A DNA stretch of 64,000 nt. It comes from Methanolobus sp. (GTDB lineage: Archaea; Halobacteriota; Methanosarcinia; Methanosarcinales; Methanosarcinaceae). The stretch is from contig NZ_JADQBZ010000007.1 of assembly GCF_016278365.1 (NCBI RefSeq), positions 124,001 through 188,000 of the forward strand. The letters are read 5' to 3'. The position numbers were made by a program, and so were the translations under genes. The notes under the pieces were generated by a model that did not search any database, was not told the origin of the DNA, and saw only the letters and a program-made list of their open reading frames with translations. Positions 31,433 through 40,998 of this stretch are shown here, in pieces (position 1 is the stretch's first letter; each line of letters begins with the position of its first letter).

Positions 31433-31771
31433 TTACCTGTCCTCCAGGATTCTCCGTGTTTCCAATTCTAAATCCGGGAGGTAGTTTTCGATTATGTCCC
31501 ATACTATATCCATGTCGATGCCAAAATATTCGTGTATCAGGATGTTTCTCAATCCCACTATCCTTTTCCATGGGATATGGGAATAATTATATCTGGTTTC
31601 AGGAGGGATTTTGCCTGCAGCTTCTCCAATGATCTCAAGATTGCGGACAACCGCATCAACCCGCATCTCGTCTTCCAGAAATTCCTCAAGAGTGATATTC
31701 TCCACATACCTTTGAATTTTCTCAATTGCTGCAAGCATATCTGCAAAGAAAACCAGTTGGTCTCTAGGCAT
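31433..31771 (-). CDS. HepT-like HEPN toxin (DUF86)
   Basis: The 112-aa helical protein belongs to the HEPN RNase toxins. The catalytic RX4HXY motif is visible as RNILIHEY near residue 78. Upstream context VDAVVRNLEIIGEAAGKIP is typical of DUF86/HepT. Its gene overlaps the nucleotidyltransferase gene by 8 nt, the standard MNT-HEPN order (antitoxin first). In characterised pairs the MntA partner AMPylates the Tyr of this motif to silence it. Confidence 0.9.
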   Translation of the reverse strand: MPRDQLVFFADMLAAIEKIQRYVENITLEEFLEDEMRVDAVVRNLEIIGEAAGKIPPETRYNYSHIPWKRIVGLRNILIHEYFGIDMDIVWDIIENYLPDLELETRRILEDR

Positions 31772-32048
31772 AAACAGCCTCTTTCAGGATATGCTCTCTT
31801 AGCCGTGGCTTTATGGCTGTCTCAATGACAAGGTCCACGTCTCTTCCAAAGAGTTCTTCAAGATAGAACTTAAGTTCCATATAATTACCAAAGGTCTTTT
31901 GGCCTTCTTTGAATTCCACAAGGATATCAACATCACTATCTCTGTGTTCCTCTCCTCTTGCAAAAGAACCGAAAACACCCACTTTTTTGACACCAAAACG
32001 CTCCATTATCACGTTCTCGTGTTCTCTTAACATCCCGAGGGCATCCAT
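31764..32048 (-). CDS. MntA-like minimal nucleotidyltransferase antitoxin
   Basis: The 94-aa protein has the polymerase-beta-type motif GSFARGEEHRDSDVDILVEF (GSx10DxD, residues ~27-46) and the third acidic strand in FGRDVDLVIE. It is the normal length of the MntA antitoxins. The overlap with the HEPN toxin gene indicates co-translation. It probably modifies HepT with AMP. The pair opens the accessory patch that continues to 35056. Confidence 0.9.
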   Translation of the reverse strand: MDALGMLREHENVIMERFGVKKVGVFGSFARGEEHRDSDVDILVEFKEGQKTFGNYMELKFYLEELFGRDVDLVIETAIKPRLREHILKEAVYA

Positions 32049-32452: not shown

Positions 32453-35056
32453 ATGAATGAAAAAAAAGTGAGTTTCAAGAAAATCTCATCAAGTACATAT
32501 AAACCAACTAATCCAGAGGTATTATGGCGCGATTTAACTAAAAAAAATAGGAATCCTACAATTGAAAGTCTGTGGTCACATCAAGCTGATATTCTTAGGG
32601 ACTATATGGACAATATAGAAGCAAAGGATGTTGCACTTGAACTGCCAACAGGGAGTGGAAAAACTCTAGTTGGTCTTTTAATTGGAGAGTATCGAAGGGT
32701 TGTAAATAATGAAAGAATATTATATCTTTGTCCCACTAAGCAGCTAGTATTTCAAGTCTTAGAAAAAGCAACTGGATACAATATTAAAGCACATGCTTTT
32801 GTAGGGACTCAAAGAGAGTATAATGTAGAAAACTTTAATGATTTTTTAAGTGCTGATGCTATTGCAGTCTCTACATATAGTGCATTGTTTAACTATGGTA
32901 AATATTTTAGTGATGCTAATGTAATTATTTGTGACGATGCTCACGGAGCCGAAAGTTACATTTCTTCGATGTGGTCTTTAAATATAAGTTCTTTTCATGA
33001 TTTATACAATGAAATTATCAACCTTTTTCAAGATGTTTTGCCCAAAGCATTTGTCGACTCATTATATACCTCATCGACTACTCGAAAAAAAACTATCGAA
33101 AAAGTACATAATCATCATTTTTATGAAAGGGTTGACCGATTAGAAGAATTACTATCTACTAATCTTTCACGTGATCAGCCAAATTTATATTATCCCTATC
33201 TTTCTATTCAAGATAATTTAGCAGCATGCAACATGTACGTCTCACCGTCTGAAATTTTAATTAGACCTTGGATTCCACCTACCCTTTCCCATGATTCTTT
33301 TATTTCTGCTACTCAAAGAATCTATATGTCAGCTACCCTAGGAAAAGGTGGAGAATTAGAAAGAATAATAGGTATGCCTGAAATTAGAAAGTTGAGTGTT
33401 CCAGCAGGTTGGGATAAACAAGGTTCAGGGAGGCGATTTTTTGTATTGCCCGATAATAAATACAAAATGAATGAATACATTCATTTCATAGCCGACAATA
33501 TCAATAAACGTGATAGAACTCTAATTTTATGTCCTGATAATCAAACAGCTGACCTAATAAAATATTCCCTAGGAGAATGTGGAGTAAGTCACACATATTA
33601 TACCGCTGAGGATATAGAGGAATCATTGGATGCTTTTGTCGCAGATGATCATGCTATTCTTCTATTAACAAATAGATATGATGGAATCGATCTTGCTGAC
33701 GAAGCATGCAGGCAGTTGATTATAGCAGGGTTGCCCGCTGCTGCAAATTTACAAGAGCGATTTTTATTATCACGTTTAGGAATTATTTCCATTCTAAAAG
33801 ATCGCATTAGGACTCGTTTTACTCAAGCATCTGGAAGGTGTACTAGAGGAGCATCTGACTATTCAGTTGTGATTCCAATAACTCAAGATCTTTTTAAGTA
33901 TTGTCAGACTAAGGAAAACCGTGATGAAATGCATCCTGAACTCCATGCAGAATTAAAATTCGGACTGCAGCAAAGTAAAGAATATGAATTGGATGACCTT
34001 TCAGAATTAATTGATTTATTCATGGAACATGGGGAAGATTGGGAAAGTGCAGAAGAATCAATAAAAGAATTTAGAGATGATTTAGAAATTGTAGAAGATA
34101 ATAGAAGCATAGTTCTTAATTCTATTGTAAAGGATGAAGTATTATTCCAAAACAATTTATGGAACAAACATTATGATGATGCTTTTATTCAAGCTCGTAA
34201 GATAATAGATAGACTATCAGGAGATGATTTCTCTGATTATAGAGCTTTGTGGAGTTATTTTGCTGGAAATGCTGCATTACTACAATATCATAAGGCAAAT
34301 GACACTACCTACTTAGATTCATGCGATACATTTTATACCATGGCTAAGAAATCTGCAAGAACAATTAGCTGGTTTGCAAATTTGCGTTCCCCAAAGCGAT
34401 TGACTGATGATATTGATTTAGACGCACTATCGGGTTATGCAATAGAACATATTATTGCAAAAATAAATAAACTTGGTTTAGTTGGTCCTAAGTTCAATAC
34501 TAAAATGAAAAACATAAAAGATTTAATTTCAGCAGATTCAGCAAATGAATTTGAAATGGGTTTGACAAATCTAGGTGAGTTATTAGGTTTTGAAACGGAC
34601 CATCCTGGACAAACAGCTGATCCCGATAGCATCTGGATGTTAAATAATAATGTTCTAGTATTGTTTGAAGCTAAAAGTGATGAGAAAGAAGAGGGAGATA
34701 TTTTTGTCCGAACTTGTAGACAAGCCCGTGGTCATTACGAGTGGGCAAAACATAATATTTCAAATTATGATGAGTTTGAAATAAAAATATGTGTCGTTAT
34801 CTCTAAAAAACCCACTTTATCTAATGATGCAATTGCACAATCAAATGATTTGTACTATGTTAATATTGACGAAATACGCCATATATTTGAAACGGTTTCA
34901 GGGATTTTAAGTAGAATACGTTCGCAATCAAATAAAGTTAATGATGATAAAATAAGAATTAAATTGTATGAAGAATTAAAGGCCGCAGACTTAGACCCTG
35001 AATGCTTGATTGCTAAACTCAATAAAACACCACTTAAAAGTTTGAGTGAAACGTAA
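32453..35056 (+). CDS. SF2-type helicase fused to a C-terminal PD-(D/E)XK nuclease-like domain; candidate defence protein
   Basis: The 867-aa soluble protein has Walker A LELPTGSGKT (~60-70), a Walker B variant IICDDAHGAES (~160), motif III-like YMSATL (~292-297) and motif VI TQASGRCTRG (~462-471), all DEAD/DEAH-like. A helical middle region follows. The C-terminal ~150 residues hold GFETDHPGQTADPDSIWMLN and NNVLVLFEAKSDE, a plausible PD...EAK nuclease site. Codon use and base composition are markedly more AT-rich than in neighbouring genes, and it lies beside toxin-antitoxin genes and relics; both suggest transfer. Target is unknown. Confidence 0.75.
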   Translation: MNEKKVSFKKISSSTYKPTNPEVLWRDLTKKNRNPTIESLWSHQADILRDYMDNIEAKDVALELPTGSGKTLVGLLIGEYRRVVNNERILYLCPTKQLVFQVLEKATGYNIKAHAFVGTQREYNVENFNDFLSADAIAVSTYSALFNYGKYFSDANVIICDDAHGAESYISSMWSLNISSFHDLYNEIINLFQDVLPKAFVDSLYTSSTTRKKTIEKVHNHHFYERVDRLEELLSTNLSRDQPNLYYPYLSIQDNLAACNMYVSPSEILIRPWIPPTLSHDSFISATQRIYMSATLGKGGELERIIGMPEIRKLSVPAGWDKQGSGRRFFVLPDNKYKMNEYIHFIADNINKRDRTLILCPDNQTADLIKYSLGECGVSHTYYTAEDIEESLDAFVADDHAILLLTNRYDGIDLADEACRQLIIAGLPAAANLQERFLLSRLGIISILKDRIRTRFTQASGRCTRGASDYSVVIPITQDLFKYCQTKENRDEMHPELHAELKFGLQQSKEYELDDLSELIDLFMEHGEDWESAEESIKEFRDDLEIVEDNRSIVLNSIVKDEVLFQNNLWNKHYDDAFIQARKIIDRLSGDDFSDYRALWSYFAGNAALLQYHKANDTTYLDSCDTFYTMAKKSARTISWFANLRSPKRLTDDIDLDALSGYAIEHIIAKINKLGLVGPKFNTKMKNIKDLISADSANEFEMGLTNLGELLGFETDHPGQTADPDSIWMLNNNVLVLFEAKSDEKEEGDIFVRTCRQARGHYEWAKHNISNYDEFEIKICVVISKKPTLSNDAIAQSNDLYYVNIDEIRHIFETVSGILSRIRSQSNKVNDDKIRIKLYEELKAADLDPECLIAKLNKTPLKSLSET

Positions 35057-35069
35057 ATAACCCAAACCC

Positions 35070-35076
35070 TTAAATA
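35070..35076 (+). promoter_or_regulatory. TATA box for the leader peptide/ALS-like transcript
   Basis: TTAAATA in the context aacccttaaatacc is centred ~28 nt upstream of the leader ATG (35101). Archaeal start sites lie about 22-27 nt from the box centre, so transcription would begin at or within a few nt of the leader start codon. Confidence 0.55.
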
Positions 35077-35100: not shown

Positions 35101-35169
35101 ATGTCAAATCCTACCACAGCTCACACTGTATTCAACGTGTCCGTAGTAGTGGTAGTACTGTCAGCTTGA
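35101..35169 (+). CDS. Valine-rich leader peptide (22 aa), candidate attenuator ORF for the ALS-like gene
   Basis: ATG...TGA encodes MSNPTTAHTVFNVSVVVVVLSA. Seven of 22 residues are Val, five of them consecutive (GTA GTA GTG GTA GTA) and followed by a Leu codon. This is the pattern of ilv-type leader peptides in bacteria, and the next gene is an acetolactate synthase-like enzyme, the branched-chain amino acid entry enzyme. No Shine-Dalgarno sequence precedes it, but the TATA box position suggests a leaderless mRNA, on which archaea initiate well. The stop codon lies inside the 5' arm of the following terminator-like hairpin. It is too short for the ORF track. Confidence 0.72.
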   Translation: MSNPTTAHTVFNVSVVVVVLSA

Positions 35170-35210
35170 GCAAGAAAAAGAAACTTTTCAGGCTCAAGTG
35201 CGCTGTTTTT
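35162..35210 (+). terminator. Attenuator-like hairpin with T-run overlapping the leader stop codon
   Basis: CTTGAGC (35165-35171) pairs with GCTCAAG (35192-35198); CAG (35162-35164) can extend the stem with CTG (35203-35205) across a short bulge. TTTTT follows immediately (35206-35210). The 5' arm begins in the last two sense codons of the leader, so a ribosome slowed on the Val codons would cover it and block folding, whereas a fast ribosome that leaves would allow termination. That mechanism is inferred. Confidence 0.6.
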
Positions 35211-35268
35211 GGTTCTTTACTGATTAGTGTATCCTGTGCCGGGATCGTTTCTTTCACGGAGAATGAAA

Positions 35269-37074
35269 ATGGAAGAAATGAATGGAGCAGAAATTTTAGT
35301 TAAATGCCTGGAGGACCTCGGGGTCAGACACATCTTTGGTTATACGGGAGCGGCGATACTGCCGGTGTTCCATGCCCTTGAGAAGAGTGATATCGGGATA
35401 ATCATCAATTCCAATGAGCAGTCGGCGGCGTTCAGTGCAGCCGGTTATTCCCGGTCGAGCAGCGAGGTCGGTGTAGCCATAGTCACATCCGGACCTGCAA
35501 TTACCAACACGCTCACCAGCGTTGCGGATGCCTATGGTGATAGCATTCCCATGCTTGTAATTGCAGGGCAGGTCCCGGAGCATAAGATAGGCACCGACTC
35601 GTTCCAGCACATCAACGTCAAGGGCATTTTCGGGGAGGCTGCAAAGAAGGTCATACAGGTATCGAATGATGATGACCTTGAGTCGATCATCAAGGACGCA
35701 TACTACTTTGCCAGGTCGGGAAAACCCGGGCCTGTTGTCATAGATGTTCCGCTGGACAAGCAGCAGAAGATGCATGAGTACCGGGACATGAACGTCATGA
35801 GGTTCGAGGAGAGTTATCATGACGACAGGCACCTGTGCGAGGAACAATGCGCAGAGTTCTTCCGGCTGCTGCTCAACTCCAAAAAGCCACTGCTCTACCT
35901 GGGCGGTGGCCTGAACTCGGAAGCAGGAAGCAAGGCCATCCGGGAGTTCAACGAACGCTTCAACATTCCCTCGGTCAACACCCTCCTGGCAAAGGGCGTC
36001 GTTGACGAACGGAATGAACTCAACCTCGGGATGCTGGGCATGTTCGGCACACCGTATGCCAATATGCTCATCCAGGAGAACGACTTCTTCTTCGCCATCG
36101 GGGTCCGGTGGGATGACAGGGTCGCGGAGAAGGTCGGGTTCGCGATAGGCACCGACATAGCCTACATCGATATCAATCCCGAGAAGATGCACCAGATAAA
36201 GATCGAGCGCGGCCCGAAATTCACATTCATCGGTGATGCTGCTACAGCCATCCGGGACCTGCTCAATTATGCGAAAAGGTACAGCATCACCTTGGATATA
36301 CACGAGTGGCAGGAGCGTGCCAGATTCCTGAAGAGGTCCTGGCCCTTGGATTATAACAGAGAATCCAAGAAAATACAATCTGCCGAGGTCATGGCCCTGC
36401 TTGCAAACTATGTTGACGGCAACACAAAGATAACCACAGGTGTCGGTAACCACCAGATGCTTGCGGCCCAGTACCTGCCAATGCAGAAGGCCAAGTCCTT
36501 CATGACATCAGGCTCTTTCGGAACAATGGGTTTTTCCCTTCCCACAGCCATCGGTGTCTGCTATGCCAACCCGGATGCAAGGGTCATTGCAATAGATGGT
36601 GACGGCAGCCTGAAAATGAACATGGGGGAACTGCACACTATTGCGTCACTGGACCTGCCCGTCAGGATACTAATGCTGAACAACCAGAGTGATGGCATGG
36701 TCCAGAATCTGCAGGATGCAGCTTACGGGGGAGCCAGGACAGGAACACAGAGACCGAAAGATGTTTGCTTCGCCGATATCGCAAGGTCCTTTGGCTTCAG
36801 TTACACAGCAAGAGTAAAGGACAGAAGTGATCTGAAAGAGAGTATCGAAACCTTCCTGAGTTCAGAAGGACCCTGTTTCCTGGAAGTCTGCACTGACAGC
36901 GAGGAGGTCCTTTACCCTAAGGTTCCTGCCGGAGGAGCTTATAAGGACATGATCCTTGGGCCTTACATAAAACAGGTATCTTCCACTTCGGCTTGTGATC
37001 GGTCAGATCTGTCCGAAAGACCTGATTTGTTAAAAGCAGATGGTATCTCTGTTAATATATCAAACATTGAGTAG
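35269..37074 (+). CDS. Acetolactate synthase-like thiamine pyrophosphate enzyme
   Basis: The ~601-aa protein starts at ATG 35269 (MEEMNGAEILVKCLEDLG), with GGAG 7 nt before; the track's GTG at 35227 adds 14 unlikely residues. The three-domain TPP-enzyme plan is clear: PYR domain with the catalytic Glu in IINSNEQSAAFSAAGYSR, a central domain, and PP domain with the Mg/TPP motif AIDGDGSLKMNMGELHTIA...LNNQSDGMVQN. Best match is the large subunit of acetolactate synthase or a close relative. No small regulatory subunit gene is adjacent. The valine-rich leader supports a branched-chain role. Confidence 0.85.
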   Translation: MEEMNGAEILVKCLEDLGVRHIFGYTGAAILPVFHALEKSDIGIIINSNEQSAAFSAAGYSRSSSEVGVAIVTSGPAITNTLTSVADAYGDSIPMLVIAGQVPEHKIGTDSFQHINVKGIFGEAAKKVIQVSNDDDLESIIKDAYYFARSGKPGPVVIDVPLDKQQKMHEYRDMNVMRFEESYHDDRHLCEEQCAEFFRLLLNSKKPLLYLGGGLNSEAGSKAIREFNERFNIPSVNTLLAKGVVDERNELNLGMLGMFGTPYANMLIQENDFFFAIGVRWDDRVAEKVGFAIGTDIAYIDINPEKMHQIKIERGPKFTFIGDAATAIRDLLNYAKRYSITLDIHEWQERARFLKRSWPLDYNRESKKIQSAEVMALLANYVDGNTKITTGVGNHQMLAAQYLPMQKAKSFMTSGSFGTMGFSLPTAIGVCYANPDARVIAIDGDGSLKMNMGELHTIASLDLPVRILMLNNQSDGMVQNLQDAAYGGARTGTQRPKDVCFADIARSFGFSYTARVKDRSDLKESIETFLSSEGPCFLEVCTDSEEVLYPKVPAGGAYKDMILGPYIKQVSSTSACDRSDLSERPDLLKADGISVNISNIE

Positions 37075-37187: not shown

Positions 37188-38474
37188 TCACATTTCCCTG
37201 TTATCGATGACTCTCCTGCTCTTCTTTTCACTGCGAGGCAGCGCTCCCATTGCCACACATTCCACTTCAACACTGACACCTATGAGATCCTGGAAGGCCT
37301 TGTCGAGTTTCTTTGCCTTTACCCTGCAGTTCTCGAGGTCATCCGCATGCTCGATCTCGACCCTGAAAAACATGGTGTCCCTGCCGGCATCCCTTTCAAG
37401 GATTATCTGGTACTCGCTACTCACACCTTCAACCCTGTGAATGACATCCTCTATCTGTCCGGGGTAGACATTCACACCTTTTATCTTGATGCGGTCATCG
37501 GTACGCCCCAGAAGGCGGTCTATGCGCGGGAAAGGACATCCGCATTTGCACGGCTCGGGCAATATGCGTGTGAGGTCCCTTGTCCTGTAGCGGATCAACG
37601 GGGCACCTTCTTTGGTCAGCGTGGTTATTACCAGCTCACCAAGGGTGCCATCGGGCAGGCTCTCCCCCGTGACCGGGTCAATTACCTCAAAGAGCAGGTG
37701 GTCGGACCAGTAATGAAGACCATCATGCAGCGAGCAATCCAGGGCAATACCCGGTCCGTATATCTCGGTCAGGCCGAAGATATCATAGGTATCAATCCCA
37801 AGTTCATCCTCGATGCGAGCCCGCATTTTGGGACTCCAGCGTTCGGAACCTATAATACCGACCTTCAGGTTTATTTTGTCCTTGAGGTCTCTTTTGCTGA
37901 TCTCCTCTGCAAGCAGGAGGGCATAGGAAGAGGTGCTTGCAAGTGCCGTGGACTTCAGATCAAGCATCATCTGCAACTGTTTTTCGGTATTTCCCGGACC
38001 CATGGGAACAGCCATGGCCCCCAGACGCTCCGCACCTGCCTGAAACCCGATGCCTGCAGTCCACAACCCGTATCCGGGTGTTATCTGTATCCGGTCCTGA
38101 TCTGTAAGTCCCGCCAGCCGATAGCAGCGCATCATCATATCCGCCCACACCTCCACATCATTCTTAGTGTAAGGGATAATGACCGGGCTGCCGGTGGTAC
38201 CCGAAGACGAATGTATCCTCACGATCTTCTCGTCCGGCACGGCCTGCAGACCCAGAGGATAGGCATCCCTCAGTTCTTCCTTTGTGGTAAGCGGGAGCTT
38301 TGTTATATCTTGCAGGGTGTTTATCTGGCCTATATCAATCCCTTCCCTCCGGAACTTCTCCTGATAAAAGGGACTCCCCTGCATAACTCTTTGAAGAAGA
38401 TCCTTTAACTTGACAGTTCTTTCCTCCACTGATATACCCAGGTCCCGGACATCAATTTCATGACAATTACACAT
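37188..38474 (-). CDS. Phenylacetate-CoA ligase family protein
   Basis: The 428-aa adenylate-forming enzyme has the AMP-binding motif IHSSSGTTGSPVIIPYT (~88-104), the GxTE motif as DIFGLTEIYGPG, and the C-terminal domain with YRTRDLTRI and IKGVNVYPGQIEDVI. It activates arylacetates such as phenylacetate or indoleacetate to CoA thioesters. The gene follows iorA-iorB in one operon (5-nt gap). In methanogens this set is thought to let aryl acids be reduced to aryl pyruvates for aromatic amino acid synthesis. Confidence 0.9.
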   Translation of the reverse strand: MCNCHEIDVRDLGISVEERTVKLKDLLQRVMQGSPFYQEKFRREGIDIGQINTLQDITKLPLTTKEELRDAYPLGLQAVPDEKIVRIHSSSGTTGSPVIIPYTKNDVEVWADMMMRCYRLAGLTDQDRIQITPGYGLWTAGIGFQAGAERLGAMAVPMGPGNTEKQLQMMLDLKSTALASTSSYALLLAEEISKRDLKDKINLKVGIIGSERWSPKMRARIEDELGIDTYDIFGLTEIYGPGIALDCSLHDGLHYWSDHLLFEVIDPVTGESLPDGTLGELVITTLTKEGAPLIRYRTRDLTRILPEPCKCGCPFPRIDRLLGRTDDRIKIKGVNVYPGQIEDVIHRVEGVSSEYQIILERDAGRDTMFFRVEIEHADDLENCRVKAKKLDKAFQDLIGVSVEVECVAMGALPRSEKKSRRVIDNREM

Positions 38475-38479
38475 TCATC

Positions 38480-39112
38480 TCACCTTGTCTCATTGGACGC
38501 TGCGGATTCCATACCCATTCCCTTTGTGTAAGAGATACTTTCAATGGCCATGTCAAACACGCTGCGATTAACGTCCCTGTATTTTTCCGGTATCATTTTC
38601 TCAAGCACATCCCACAGGTATTCCTGTGAGAACGGTAGCAGACCCGCACCTGCTGCAGCTGCTATCATGGCAACGTTCGCCGCCTTGTAGGTCCCTGCAT
38701 CCTTTGCAAGCCGGGTGAAATCGGCAGAGATGATATTCGGACAATTGTCATTAAGGAATCCGATGAGCCTGTCAGGGTTGTATTCCTCACTTCCTCTGCC
38801 CTGAGTAGATGGCAATATAGCGTGTCCGTTCACCACGACACTGCCGCCCTTGCGCAGATAACGAAGGTTTCTGGCGGCTTCTGCGGGTTCAAGTCCTATG
38901 ATGAGGTCGGCAGTTCCCTGCGGTATGAGCGAGCCGTACACATCATCCCCTATCCTCACATGGCTTGTAACGGAACCCTCCCTCTGGGCCATGCCTATTG
39001 TCTCAGCTGTAGCCACATGGAAACCTGCATCCATGGCCGCGGTGGCAAGCAGGCGGGAAGCCAACACAACACCCTGGCCACCCACGCCTGCAATAAGAAT
39101 ATCGAATTTCAT
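38480..39112 (-). CDS. iorB: Indolepyruvate ferredoxin oxidoreductase, beta subunit
   Basis: The ~210-aa protein starts at ATG 39112 (MKFDILIAGVGGQGVVLASR), overlapping the iorA stop as ATGA; the 52 residues added in the track are antisense to nothing useful and overlap iorA. The GVGGQGVV motif and IGLEPAEAARNLRYLRKGG are typical of the gamma-type domain of 2-oxoacid oxidoreductases. With IorA it interconverts aryl pyruvates and aryl-acetyl-CoA plus CO2 using ferredoxin. Confidence 0.93.
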   Translation of the reverse strand: MKFDILIAGVGGQGVVLASRLLATAAMDAGFHVATAETIGMAQREGSVTSHVRIGDDVYGSLIPQGTADLIIGLEPAEAARNLRYLRKGGSVVVNGHAILPSTQGRGSEEYNPDRLIGFLNDNCPNIISADFTRLAKDAGTYKAANVAMIAAAAGAGLLPFSQEYLWDVLEKMIPEKYRDVNRSVFDMAIESISYTKGMGMESAASNETR

Positions 39113-40998
39113 TGCAAGACCTCCTTCAGAATAATAGCTGCCGAGGGACATGTCTGGGCACACAGGCCACAGCCGCTGCATGTATCCTGAATCACAGGCA
39201 AGCCAGAAGTTATTGAGAATATGGCGGGACATCCCAGCTGTGAGATGCAAAGCTTGCAGCCTGTGCATTTATCTTCATCAACAATATACTGCCCTGCTCC
39301 CTTGCTTATAGCAATACATTTCTCTCTGAAAACAACAGCAGAGGGACCTTCGAATTGCATAGCTTCTGTGGCTGCATCTATGCATCCCTCAAGGCTATCT
39401 GCTCCTATTGTCCTGACCAGGCCGACACCACAGCTTTTGAGGACTTCTGCTATGTCGATTATCTTTGCAGGCGAGCCTACGGCCGTTATACCGATACCCG
39501 GATGAGGCTGATGACCTGTCATGGCAGTAGTGCGGTTGTCGAGAACCGCAATAGTGATGTCAGCATTGTTGTATACCGCACTGACGACTGCAGCTATTCC
39601 TGAGTGGAAGAAGGTCGAATCACCAATAAAGGCGACCTGCTTTGCTTTTCCATTGCTGCTGTACTCCTGTGTATGGGACAGGCCGGCGGCGATGCTGATA
39701 CCGGCACCCATGCAAAGGCAGGTGTCGACCATATTCAACGGCCTGGCATTCCCAAGTGTGTAACAGCCGATATCCCCGGAGAACACAGAGCCGATATCCT
39801 TCTGTGACCTCAGTTTGCCGGCAGCTTTCTTGAATGCATAGAACACTGTCCTGTGCATGCAACCTGCACACAGGGTGGGAGCCCTTATCGGGAGGGAAGG
39901 GACTTCTTTTAAGTTGATGGCAGGCAATGAATGGGAAAGGCCAGGAATATCCGTATTGCCTTTTTCCAGTGAGCTGTTGATGCCGTCAATGACAACATCG
40001 ACATCGTACTCCCCGCTTACCGGGAAGCAGCCGTTCTTCTTCCCATATATGTTAACATTGAGGTGATGTTTGCCAGCCAGTTGCAGGAACTGCTCTTCCA
40101 TATACGGGTCCAGCTCCTCGACAACTATCAGGTCAGTGATGCCCTTCAGGAACTCAAGAGCTGCCTTTTCAGGGAAAGGGTAAACAGTTGCTGTTTTGAA
40201 GACCGGGAACACGCCAGAAAGAGCTCTTATAGCCTCCATTGCATAGAGATAAGAGACACCCGAAGCAGCGATACCTATCCTGCTGCTTCCCTTTGATACT
40301 GAATTGAATGAGTTGTCCCCGAAGTATTCGGAGAAACGGTCCGATAATCTCAACTGAAGATCCTCCAGCAGAGGGTGCCTCTGGGCTGTCAGTTTAGGGA
40401 ATATGGCCCATCTGGTGTCTTTTACAAATCCTTCGATGTCTCTGGGAACCGGAAATATGTCCCCGATGACTACGTCCGCACATCCATGGGAAACGCGTGT
40501 GGTCGTCCTGAGTATCACGGGAGTTTCCATCTCATGCGATAATTCAAAAGCCAGCAGGGTCATATCATAGGCTTCCTGCGGCGTGGAAGGATCCAGGACG
40601 GGTATGTTTGCAAAATGGCCAAACACTCTTGTGTCCTGCTCTGTCTGGGAGGAGTGCGGACCCGGATCATCGGAAACGAGGATTACGAGCGAGCCTTTCA
40701 CTCCTATGTACGAGAGACTCATGAGAGGGTCAGAAGCTACGTTGAGACCGACCTGTTTCATTGTAACGATGGCATTAGCACCTGAGTATGCGGCTCCCAC
40801 GGCTGTTTCGAGCGCCACCTTCTCATTGGTCGCCCATTCAGCATAAATGCCGTATTCTTTTGCATGGGAGGCTATGGTCTCCATAACCTCGTTGGAAGGT
40901 GTGCCGGGGTACCCGCTGGCTATCTGTACACCGGCTTTCATCGCACCAAAAGCGATGGCTTCGTTACCCATTAATATACGTTTACTGGACAATGGCAT
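39109..40998 (-). CDS. iorA: Indolepyruvate ferredoxin oxidoreductase, alpha subunit
   Basis: The 629-aa TPP-dependent, oxygen-sensitive enzyme has an N-terminal pyrimidine-binding domain (GNEAIAFGAMKAGVQIASGYPGTPSNEVMETI) and a TPP motif GDIGCYTLG...IGDSTFFHSGIAA. Two 4Fe-4S motifs close it: CTGCKLCISQLGCP and CSGCGLCAQTCP. It is the first gene of iorA-iorB-CoA ligase, with IorB coupled by a 4-nt overlap. A TATA-like tttatattttatataatg lies upstream on the minus strand (~41100-41118). Confidence 0.95.
   Translation of the reverse strand: MPLSSKRILMGNEAIAFGAMKAGVQIASGYPGTPSNEVMETIASHAKEYGIYAEWATNEKVALETAVGAAYSGANAIVTMKQVGLNVASDPLMSLSYIGVKGSLVILVSDDPGPHSSQTEQDTRVFGHFANIPVLDPSTPQEAYDMTLLAFELSHEMETPVILRTTTRVSHGCADVVIGDIFPVPRDIEGFVKDTRWAIFPKLTAQRHPLLEDLQLRLSDRFSEYFGDNSFNSVSKGSSRIGIAASGVSYLYAMEAIRALSGVFPVFKTATVYPFPEKAALEFLKGITDLIVVEELDPYMEEQFLQLAGKHHLNVNIYGKKNGCFPVSGEYDVDVVIDGINSSLEKGNTDIPGLSHSLPAINLKEVPSLPIRAPTLCAGCMHRTVFYAFKKAAGKLRSQKDIGSVFSGDIGCYTLGNARPLNMVDTCLCMGAGISIAAGLSHTQEYSSNGKAKQVAFIGDSTFFHSGIAAVVSAVYNNADITIAVLDNRTTAMTGHQPHPGIGITAVGSPAKIIDIAEVLKSCGVGLVRTIGADSLEGCIDAATEAMQFEGPSAVVFREKCIAISKGAGQYIVDEDKCTGCKLCISQLGCPAIFSITSGLPVIQDTCSGCGLCAQTCPSAAIILKEVLQ

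Follow-up and report, generated by a model that had tools for sequence, protein, structure and literature searches.

A Valine-Codon Leader and Two Mutually Exclusive RNA Folds Upstream of an Archaeal Acetolactate Synthase Gene: a Candidate Ribosome-Mediated Attenuator

The leader ORF and the gene that follows it

In the window, by which we mean the whole 64,000-nucleotide stretch of Methanolobus sp. DNA analysed here, a short valine-rich open reading frame (ORF) stands between a TATA box and a gene of the acetolactate synthase (ALS) family:

35070 to 35076 (+): TATA box TTAAATA of the leader transcript; a TATA-like box is found in 40 of 40 tabulated loci
35101 to 35169 (+): leader ORF, MSNPTTAHTVFNVSVVVVVLSA followed by a stop, probably leaderless and in frame across orthologs
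35143 to 35160 (+): candidate regulatory codons, GTA GTA GTG GTA GTA (five Val), then CTG (Leu)
35258 to 35261 (+): Shine-Dalgarno-like GGAG of the ALS gene, recognized by sequence and nearly invariant in the alignment
35269 to 37074 (+): ALS-family catalytic subunit, a second acetolactate synthase and the putative regulated gene (TIGR00118, 1.5e-150)

The leader runs for 22 codons from an ATG at 35101-35103 to a TGA at 35167-35169, with its Val codons at 35143-35157 and its Leu codon at 35158-35160. The TATA box begins 31 nt 5' of this ATG, and the ALS gene starts with the ATG at 35269. An earlier note on this DNA had described the 22-codon Val-run ORF, a stop codon within a hairpin arm, a T5 tract, and a TATA box, and all of these are present as described. 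The Val-run pattern GTNGTNGTNGTNGT occurs once in the window against an expectation of 0.08, which, together with its recurrence 5' of ALS orthologs, argues that the ORF did not arise by chance.

The neighborhood holds several other genes. An 867-aa DEAD/ResIII-type helicase (window 32453-35056, +) stops 44 nt 5' of the leader ATG, and the DNA immediately 5' of the leader is unlike the window's in the other species inspected. Two adjacent small genes at 31433-32048 (−) resemble a HepT/MntA-type toxin-antitoxin pair (HEPN plus minimal nucleotidyltransferase), and a cluster encoding a phenylacetate-CoA-ligase-like protein and the beta and alpha subunits of an indolepyruvate ferredoxin oxidoreductase (37188-40998, −) is convergent with the ALS gene.

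By sequence, the downstream protein is clearly a catalytic subunit of the ALS superfamily: it carries the Pfam TPP domains, and its best PDB match is a plant ALS. Its TIGR00118 score of 502 bits falls below the equivalog cut-off of 538; the protein appears nearest to the anabolic ALS catalytic subunits, and its exact reaction is putative. The same genome contains a canonical ilvB, located after leuA and 38% identical to the leader-linked gene. In all 36 comparable orthologs of the leader-linked ALS, Leu replaces the Trp that the genome's own IlvB has in its GMVxxW motif. This Trp presumably favors 2-oxobutyrate, and Leu in its place would suit acetolactate, i.e., the Val/Leu branch. Such an enzyme would fit a leader that has Val and Leu codons, and across the orthologs the leaders contain almost no Ile codons.

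Conservation and distribution of the leader

ALS orthologs were gathered from 60 relatives, from named genomes, and from 394 genomes across the phylum; 40 loci, some of them near-duplicates, were tabulated, and further loci checked later also carry the leader. Within the phylum sample the gene is confined to the Methanosarcinaceae (32 of 394 genomes, 6 of 136 genera). Contigs labelled Woesearchaeota, Nanoarchaeota, and archaeon ADurb.Bin336 carry it too, as do a few bacteria. A Val-run leader lies 5' of the gene in all archaeal orthologs with readable upstream DNA, and leader-bearing ALS genes span at least five Methanosarcinaceae genera plus the Woesearchaeota-, Nanoarchaeota-, and deep-archaeon-labelled contigs. 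The bacterial homologues (L058-L061, 61 to 64% identity) had no Val leader upstream. The earlier note had allowed that relatives might lack the Val-run ORF, but the archaeal orthologs keep it.

The leader is tied to the gene in other respects as well. The start of the TATA-like box is 29 to 33 nt from the leader ATG in all 40 tabulated loci, and this constant spacing, together with the retention of the ORF, supports a probably leaderless Val(/Leu) ORF linked to ALS. Leader length is 22, 23, 24, 25, or 27 codons, with the frame unbroken in every ortholog, while the distance from leader stop to ALS is spread over the three frames (16/13/11). Among the 60 relatives the leader motif is present in 26, all of which carry the ALS gene, and in none without it; the sole ALS-bearing relative that escapes the motif search (G007) has a G-to-A change within the searched motif. 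A scan of the 394 phylum genomes for TATA-ATG-(GTR)4 returned the ALS leader and three chance-looking matches.

Four of the loci (L052, L053, L057, and L062) are ALS-plus-leader pairs in the Woesearchaeota-, Nanoarchaeota-, and ADurb.Bin336-labelled contigs. No other ALS matches were seen in the genomes of L052, L053, and L057 when these were looked for, which suggests that gene and leader moved together, as a single unit, into those lineages. The DPANN-labelled contigs could be misbinned. Misbinned or not, they represent separate gene lineages, since their ALS proteins are 69 to 74% identical to the window's and are thus at least as divergent as, or close to, the most distant Methanosarcinaceae protein found (73%).

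Similar arrangements elsewhere in these genomes are few. One relative (G022) has a second, decaying copy of leader and hairpin without ALS (L081:7700-7851, −), with a duplicated DUF4386-like gene as its neighbor; the copy has lost most of segment 5 (see below), its 3' arm reads GCTCATG, and it looks like the relic of a local duplication. In another (G021, L113:1500-1630), a TATA box stands at leaderless distance from an Ile-run ORF, MLNLIIIITITSCTN, before a gene for a secreted-protein-like product; found in one genome alone, this is probably chance. Searches of the 60 relatives for Trp-run and His-run TATA-ATG patterns gave stray matches only, and no comparable leader was seen by eye upstream of leuA, which precedes the canonical ilvB in the same genome.

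The peptide sequence itself is loosely held. Leaders vary from MSNPTTAHTVFNVSVVVVVLSA to MLNSTTNYTESNLPVSVVVVLVVVLFA, MSNKSADYFLNLLVVVVVVAVLVA, MNNITNLQSVLLLLVVVVLLVA, and MQITNRTMRAFLLALVMLVVLVA, and the most distant share only the Val/Leu end, where VVVL is nearly invariant across 38 loci. Val codons of the leaders are GTA or GTG in 258 of 276 cases (GTC or GTT in 18), versus 284 of 1321 in the ALS genes (GTC or GTT in 1037); Fisher's test gives p ~1e-118, which, the sequences being related, is not a true probability. At four of the five leader Val positions the third base is conserved at 0.95 to 1.00, the last Val codon ending in G or A; the conserved Val sites of ALS average 0.69. The frozen third bases and the GTA/GTG bias indicate that these codons are kept both as Val and as RNA. 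When synonymous codons were randomised, stability of the stem was mildly favored (mean z −1.2, mostly non-significant singly) and self-folding of the leader less so.

It is most improbable, given these patterns, that the ORF encodes a functional small protein to which the RNA structure is incidental. Frame conservation is what such a protein would show, and many small ORFs are translated in Methanosarcina mazei (PMC11456600). However, only the Val/Leu end persists in the most distant members, codons 2-9 vary equally at positions 1 to 3, unlike those of a selected protein, most Val codons have a fixed third base, and the motif is limited to ALS-bearing genomes among the 60 relatives, the one extra copy being a relic.

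Two RNA folds that share a segment

The RNA from the leader to the ALS start can be divided as follows, the numbers joined by a colon denoting paired segments:

35111 to 35117 (+): segment 1 (CUACCAC), pairing with the Val codons at 35149-35155; 95% of cells paired, weak covariation
35154 to 35158 (+): segment 2, the end of the Val run and base of the 3:4 stem, with its partner at 35200-35204; 93.7% paired
35164 to 35171 (+): segment 3, 5' arm of the core hairpin (GCUUGAGC), holding the leader stop TGA; 99.7% paired in 38 sequences
35177 to 35204 (+): segment 4, comprising the loop, the 3' arm (35192-35199), and GCGCU (35200-35204); its partner is 2+3 or 5
35206 to 35210 (+): T5 tract, right after the 3:4 stem and in the apical loop of 4:5
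35226 to 35254 (+): segment 5, proximal to the Shine-Dalgarno and complementary to segment 4; 25 pairs, 88.9% paired
35245 to 35256 (+): part of segment 5 that pairs instead with the ALS start region at 35270-35281 (5:6)

In the first fold, the core stem (35164-35171/35192-35199) is extended by 35154-35158/35200-35204 up to the T tract. The hairpin of the earlier note, with the stop codon in its 5' arm and the T tract behind it, is therefore conserved as part of a longer stem rooted in the Val codons. Pairing of 2+3:4 holds in 97.4% of cells, with two-sided changes in 4 pairs and 9 cells, values matched by 3 of 500 and 1 of 500 shuffles, respectively; the segment 2 helix has two-sided changes in three of its five pairs. 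The predicted fold of the free window RNA is more stable than those of dinucleotide shuffles (z about −2.2). In 35 of 40 loci a run of at least four T's follows the core stem at a distance of no more than 14 nt, and in most Methanosarcinaceae it lies exactly 7 nt past it. It is weak or absent in L010, L053, and L057, and both folds persist in members of this kind. Among the best conserved helices there was no upstream antiterminator partner for segment 3.

The second fold, 4:5, draws on the same segment 4 and is mutually exclusive with 3:4 over 35192-35204; in most loci it terminates a few nucleotides 5' of the Shine-Dalgarno. Scored on a MAFFT alignment that was not fitted to any structure, 4:5 has two-sided changes in 11 pairs and 22 cells, against shuffle means of 3.3 and 3.7, with 0 of 500 shuffles reaching it on every measure, statistics that relatedness among the sequences inflates. 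Slid and swapped controls keep that relatedness. When the partner was slid by 1 to 3 columns, at most 5 pairs and 7 cells changed on both sides, and in L010, L006, L064, L052, L053, and L057 the locus's own duplex was better than all between-group swaps. Independently of any alignment, the own 4:5 duplex ranges from −21.9 to −32.0 kcal/mol in 18 representatives except L062 (−13.6), and it beats dinucleotide shuffles in 18 of 18 (z −1.9 to −6.6). The sequences involved differ widely: the loop GAAAAAAUC pairs with GAUUUUUUC in L064 (Methanohalobium), AGGAAAA with UUUUCCU in L053, and GGCUCAAGUG with CAUUUGAGCC in L057. Comparison of the orthologous sequences establishes the ORF, its frame, its Val codons, and both RNA folds. 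The proposal that no antiterminator stem is needed, in a minimal two-state switch, is accordingly not supported, as an exclusive second pairing with compensatory changes occurs in all clades.

Folding predictions agree with a switch in most species. With segment 3 free, 3:4 is predicted at 0.96 or more in 15 of 18 representatives; with segment 3 covered, the prediction for 13 of the 18 is 4:5 at 0.9 or more. In the model L052 and L043 do not switch, and L053 and L057 favor 4:5 even when free. Where a ribosome would have to stand was estimated from a masking geometry in which its leading edge lies 15 nt from the first P-site base, a value assumed from bacterial toeprints. In this geometry, an A site on Val 15-18 covers only segment 2 and leaves the core hairpin intact, the last Val is a half-way position, and the Leu codon, the following codons, and the stop leave segment 3 fully open; 3:4 comes open in all species tested when the ribosome stands on the stop codon. 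The earlier idea that a ribosome stalled on the Val codons directly masks the arm thus holds in the model for the last Val, as for the Leu and stop positions, but not for earlier Val stalls, and in its simple form the masking model was rejected, since early stalls keep the core hairpin formed. Because only late positions open segment 3, we favor a stall on the last codons of the VVVL run.

The 5:6 pairing, which includes the ALS start codon, belongs to the minimum-energy fold of the free window RNA and pairs in 93% of cells, but its two-sided changes do not exceed chance. Covering arm 3 loosens it clearly in 17 of 38 sequences, the window's own not among them. A control pairing between the loop and the start region was at or below chance.

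A candidate attenuator, its alternatives, and its relatives

We consider it quite probable, on the comparative and folding evidence, that the locus is a ribosome-mediated attenuator of the archaeal ALS gene that senses charging of Val (and Leu) tRNA. The mRNA 5' end would lie at or beside the leader ATG, as the TATA spacing implies, so that the Val-run peptide would be translated from the 5' end. With Val- and Leu-tRNA charged, the ribosome would clear the leader and 3:4 would form; transcription could then stop at the adjacent T5, and segment 5 would be available for pairing with the ALS start codon. With Val or Leu scarce, the ribosome would halt at the end of the Val-Leu run, over segments 2 and 3, and segment 4 would pair with segment 5, allowing the ALS message to be read through and translated. 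We infer that starvation turns the gene on and that the output is at translation, termination, or both. A transcript end at T5 is plausible, but, without certainty, we rate a translational or mixed output above termination alone, because not every locus has the T tract and segment 5 comes after it.

The purely transcriptional alternative, in which 3:4 and T5 terminate, a stalled ribosome blocks 3:4 so that polymerase reads through, and 4:5 keeps segment 4 off segment 3 later or shields the T tract from aCPSF1/FttA, strikes us as rather unlikely. The T run at a fixed 7 nt in most Methanosarcinaceae, adjoining the extended stem, fits it well; archaeal U tracts do terminate and are bound by aCPSF1 (PMC8716108), and ilvBNC of C. 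glutamicum acts at transcription (PMC11857589). Yet segment 5, being 3' of the T tract, is transcribed after it, so 4:5, the pairing with the strongest covariation, would form after polymerase has passed and cannot serve classical antitermination. Likewise, L010, L053, and L057 have little or no T tract, a hairpin is not strictly required for archaeal termination, and aCPSF1 binds best to two U4 tracts (PMC8716108), of which only one is present here. The earlier note had seen the logic of bacterial ilv attenuators at this locus. Leader, hairpin, and T tract sustain the comparison, but a purely bacterial-style terminator is not the best-supported output, given that the T tract is absent in some members, that the folds persist, and that archaea do not require the hairpin.

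A switch at translation only, erm-like and without termination, in which 3:4 and 5:6 hide the ALS start and 4:5 frees it, has a substantial chance of being correct, if somewhat short of even. The end of 4:5 a few nucleotides from the Shine-Dalgarno in most loci would be expected of such a switch, as would the 5:6 pairing, which is widespread, contains the start codon, and is in the minimum-energy fold of the window RNA. The chance-level double changes in 5:6 speak against it, as does the fact that covering arm 3 opens the start region in some species only, and the T tract kept in 35 of 40 loci would be left unexplained. Because a stop-codon ribosome would also open 3:4, the opposite sign has to be weighed too: a ribosome pausing at the stop would turn ALS on and an early Val stall would turn it off. 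Such an arrangement would make sense for an acetolactate synthase with an overflow or catabolic role. It agrees with the masking model, where the stop position opens 3:4 in all species tested and early Val positions do not, and with the ALS being a second copy besides the canonical ilvB. Nevertheless, we regard it as improbable, the protein being nearest to anabolic ALS catalytic subunits and recycling at stop codons being usually fast. Moreover, leaders with many codons for the product amino acid follow, as a rule, a product-repressing logic, which also counts against this sign.

Returning to the attenuator with starvation as the activating signal, the closest known systems are the leaderless ilvBNC attenuator of C. 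glutamicum and the erm-type translational attenuators, which are not known to use a T tract in the switch. The E. coli ivbL leader of ilvBN is also rich in Val and Leu, controls a Val/Leu-responsive ALS, and, as generally described, has no Ile codons, much as in the archaeal leader; it differs in being bacterial, a classical trp-type transcription attenuator, and in having its own leader ribosome site. In C. glutamicum, as here, a Val-codon leader ORF (IlvL, MTIIRLVVVTARRLP) precedes an acetohydroxyacid synthase gene; the transcript begins a single nucleotide away from the leader's start codon, and Val-to-Ala changes abolish the valine response (PMC11857589). That system is bacterial and transcriptional, its transcript starts 292 bp before ilvB, and its antiterminator strand lies 5' of the terminator, whereas the second pairing of the archaeal leader uses a strand 3' of the T tract, beside the Shine-Dalgarno. 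The actinobacterial ilvB leaders resemble ours in that a Val-run ORF overlaps the hairpin and poly-U with no obvious upstream antiterminator; their Ile/Val/Leu codons overlap the terminator, codon substitutions in Streptomyces were without effect, and the mode is unclear (PMC1262725). They too are bacterial, and the archaeal locus has instead a covarying alternative pairing. In ErmCL, a leader ORF is followed by segments that re-pair on ribosome stalling, with output at a downstream start (PMC10219788), but its arrest is antibiotic-induced and bacterial, whereas the archaeal leader has a run of product codons. The archaeal leader shares with trp/ilv-type attenuators an end-product codon run in the leader ORF and a hairpin directly followed by a U tract, but not an antiterminator before the terminator, its exclusive alternative being segment 5, 3' of the T tract. 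With the erm type it shares mutually exclusive, covarying pairings, between which a ribosome would presumably select in vivo.

Leader-peptide attenuators have been described in Proteobacteria, Actinobacteria, and Firmicutes (PMC2965389). No archaeal case was found in the searchable open papers, in agreement with the earlier note's remark on novelty, although such absence is not proof; one tool paper says generically that uORFs act in archaea and gives no example (PMC10219788). The locus goes unmentioned in the main texts of published transcript studies on Methanolobus and M. mazei, and Rfam gave no match of the leader RNA to a riboswitch or other cis-regulatory family at gathering threshold (one chance-level match, E 3.4). 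This is likely to be the first amino-acid-sensing, ribosome-mediated attenuation in archaea, with a leaderless Val leader and a competitor fold reaching the Shine-Dalgarno, carried with ALS by deeply separated lineages and absent from the bacterial homologues.

Whether transcription and translation in archaea are coupled tightly enough for attenuation is a question that the literature has yet to settle (PMC8116511), and the locus would, if our reading is correct, offer a defined system for testing this, built on a bistable RNA with both folds visible in covariation. On that reading, archaea gauge amino acid supply by where a ribosome stands on a leader peptide, working with their own promoters and termination and with leaderless initiation.
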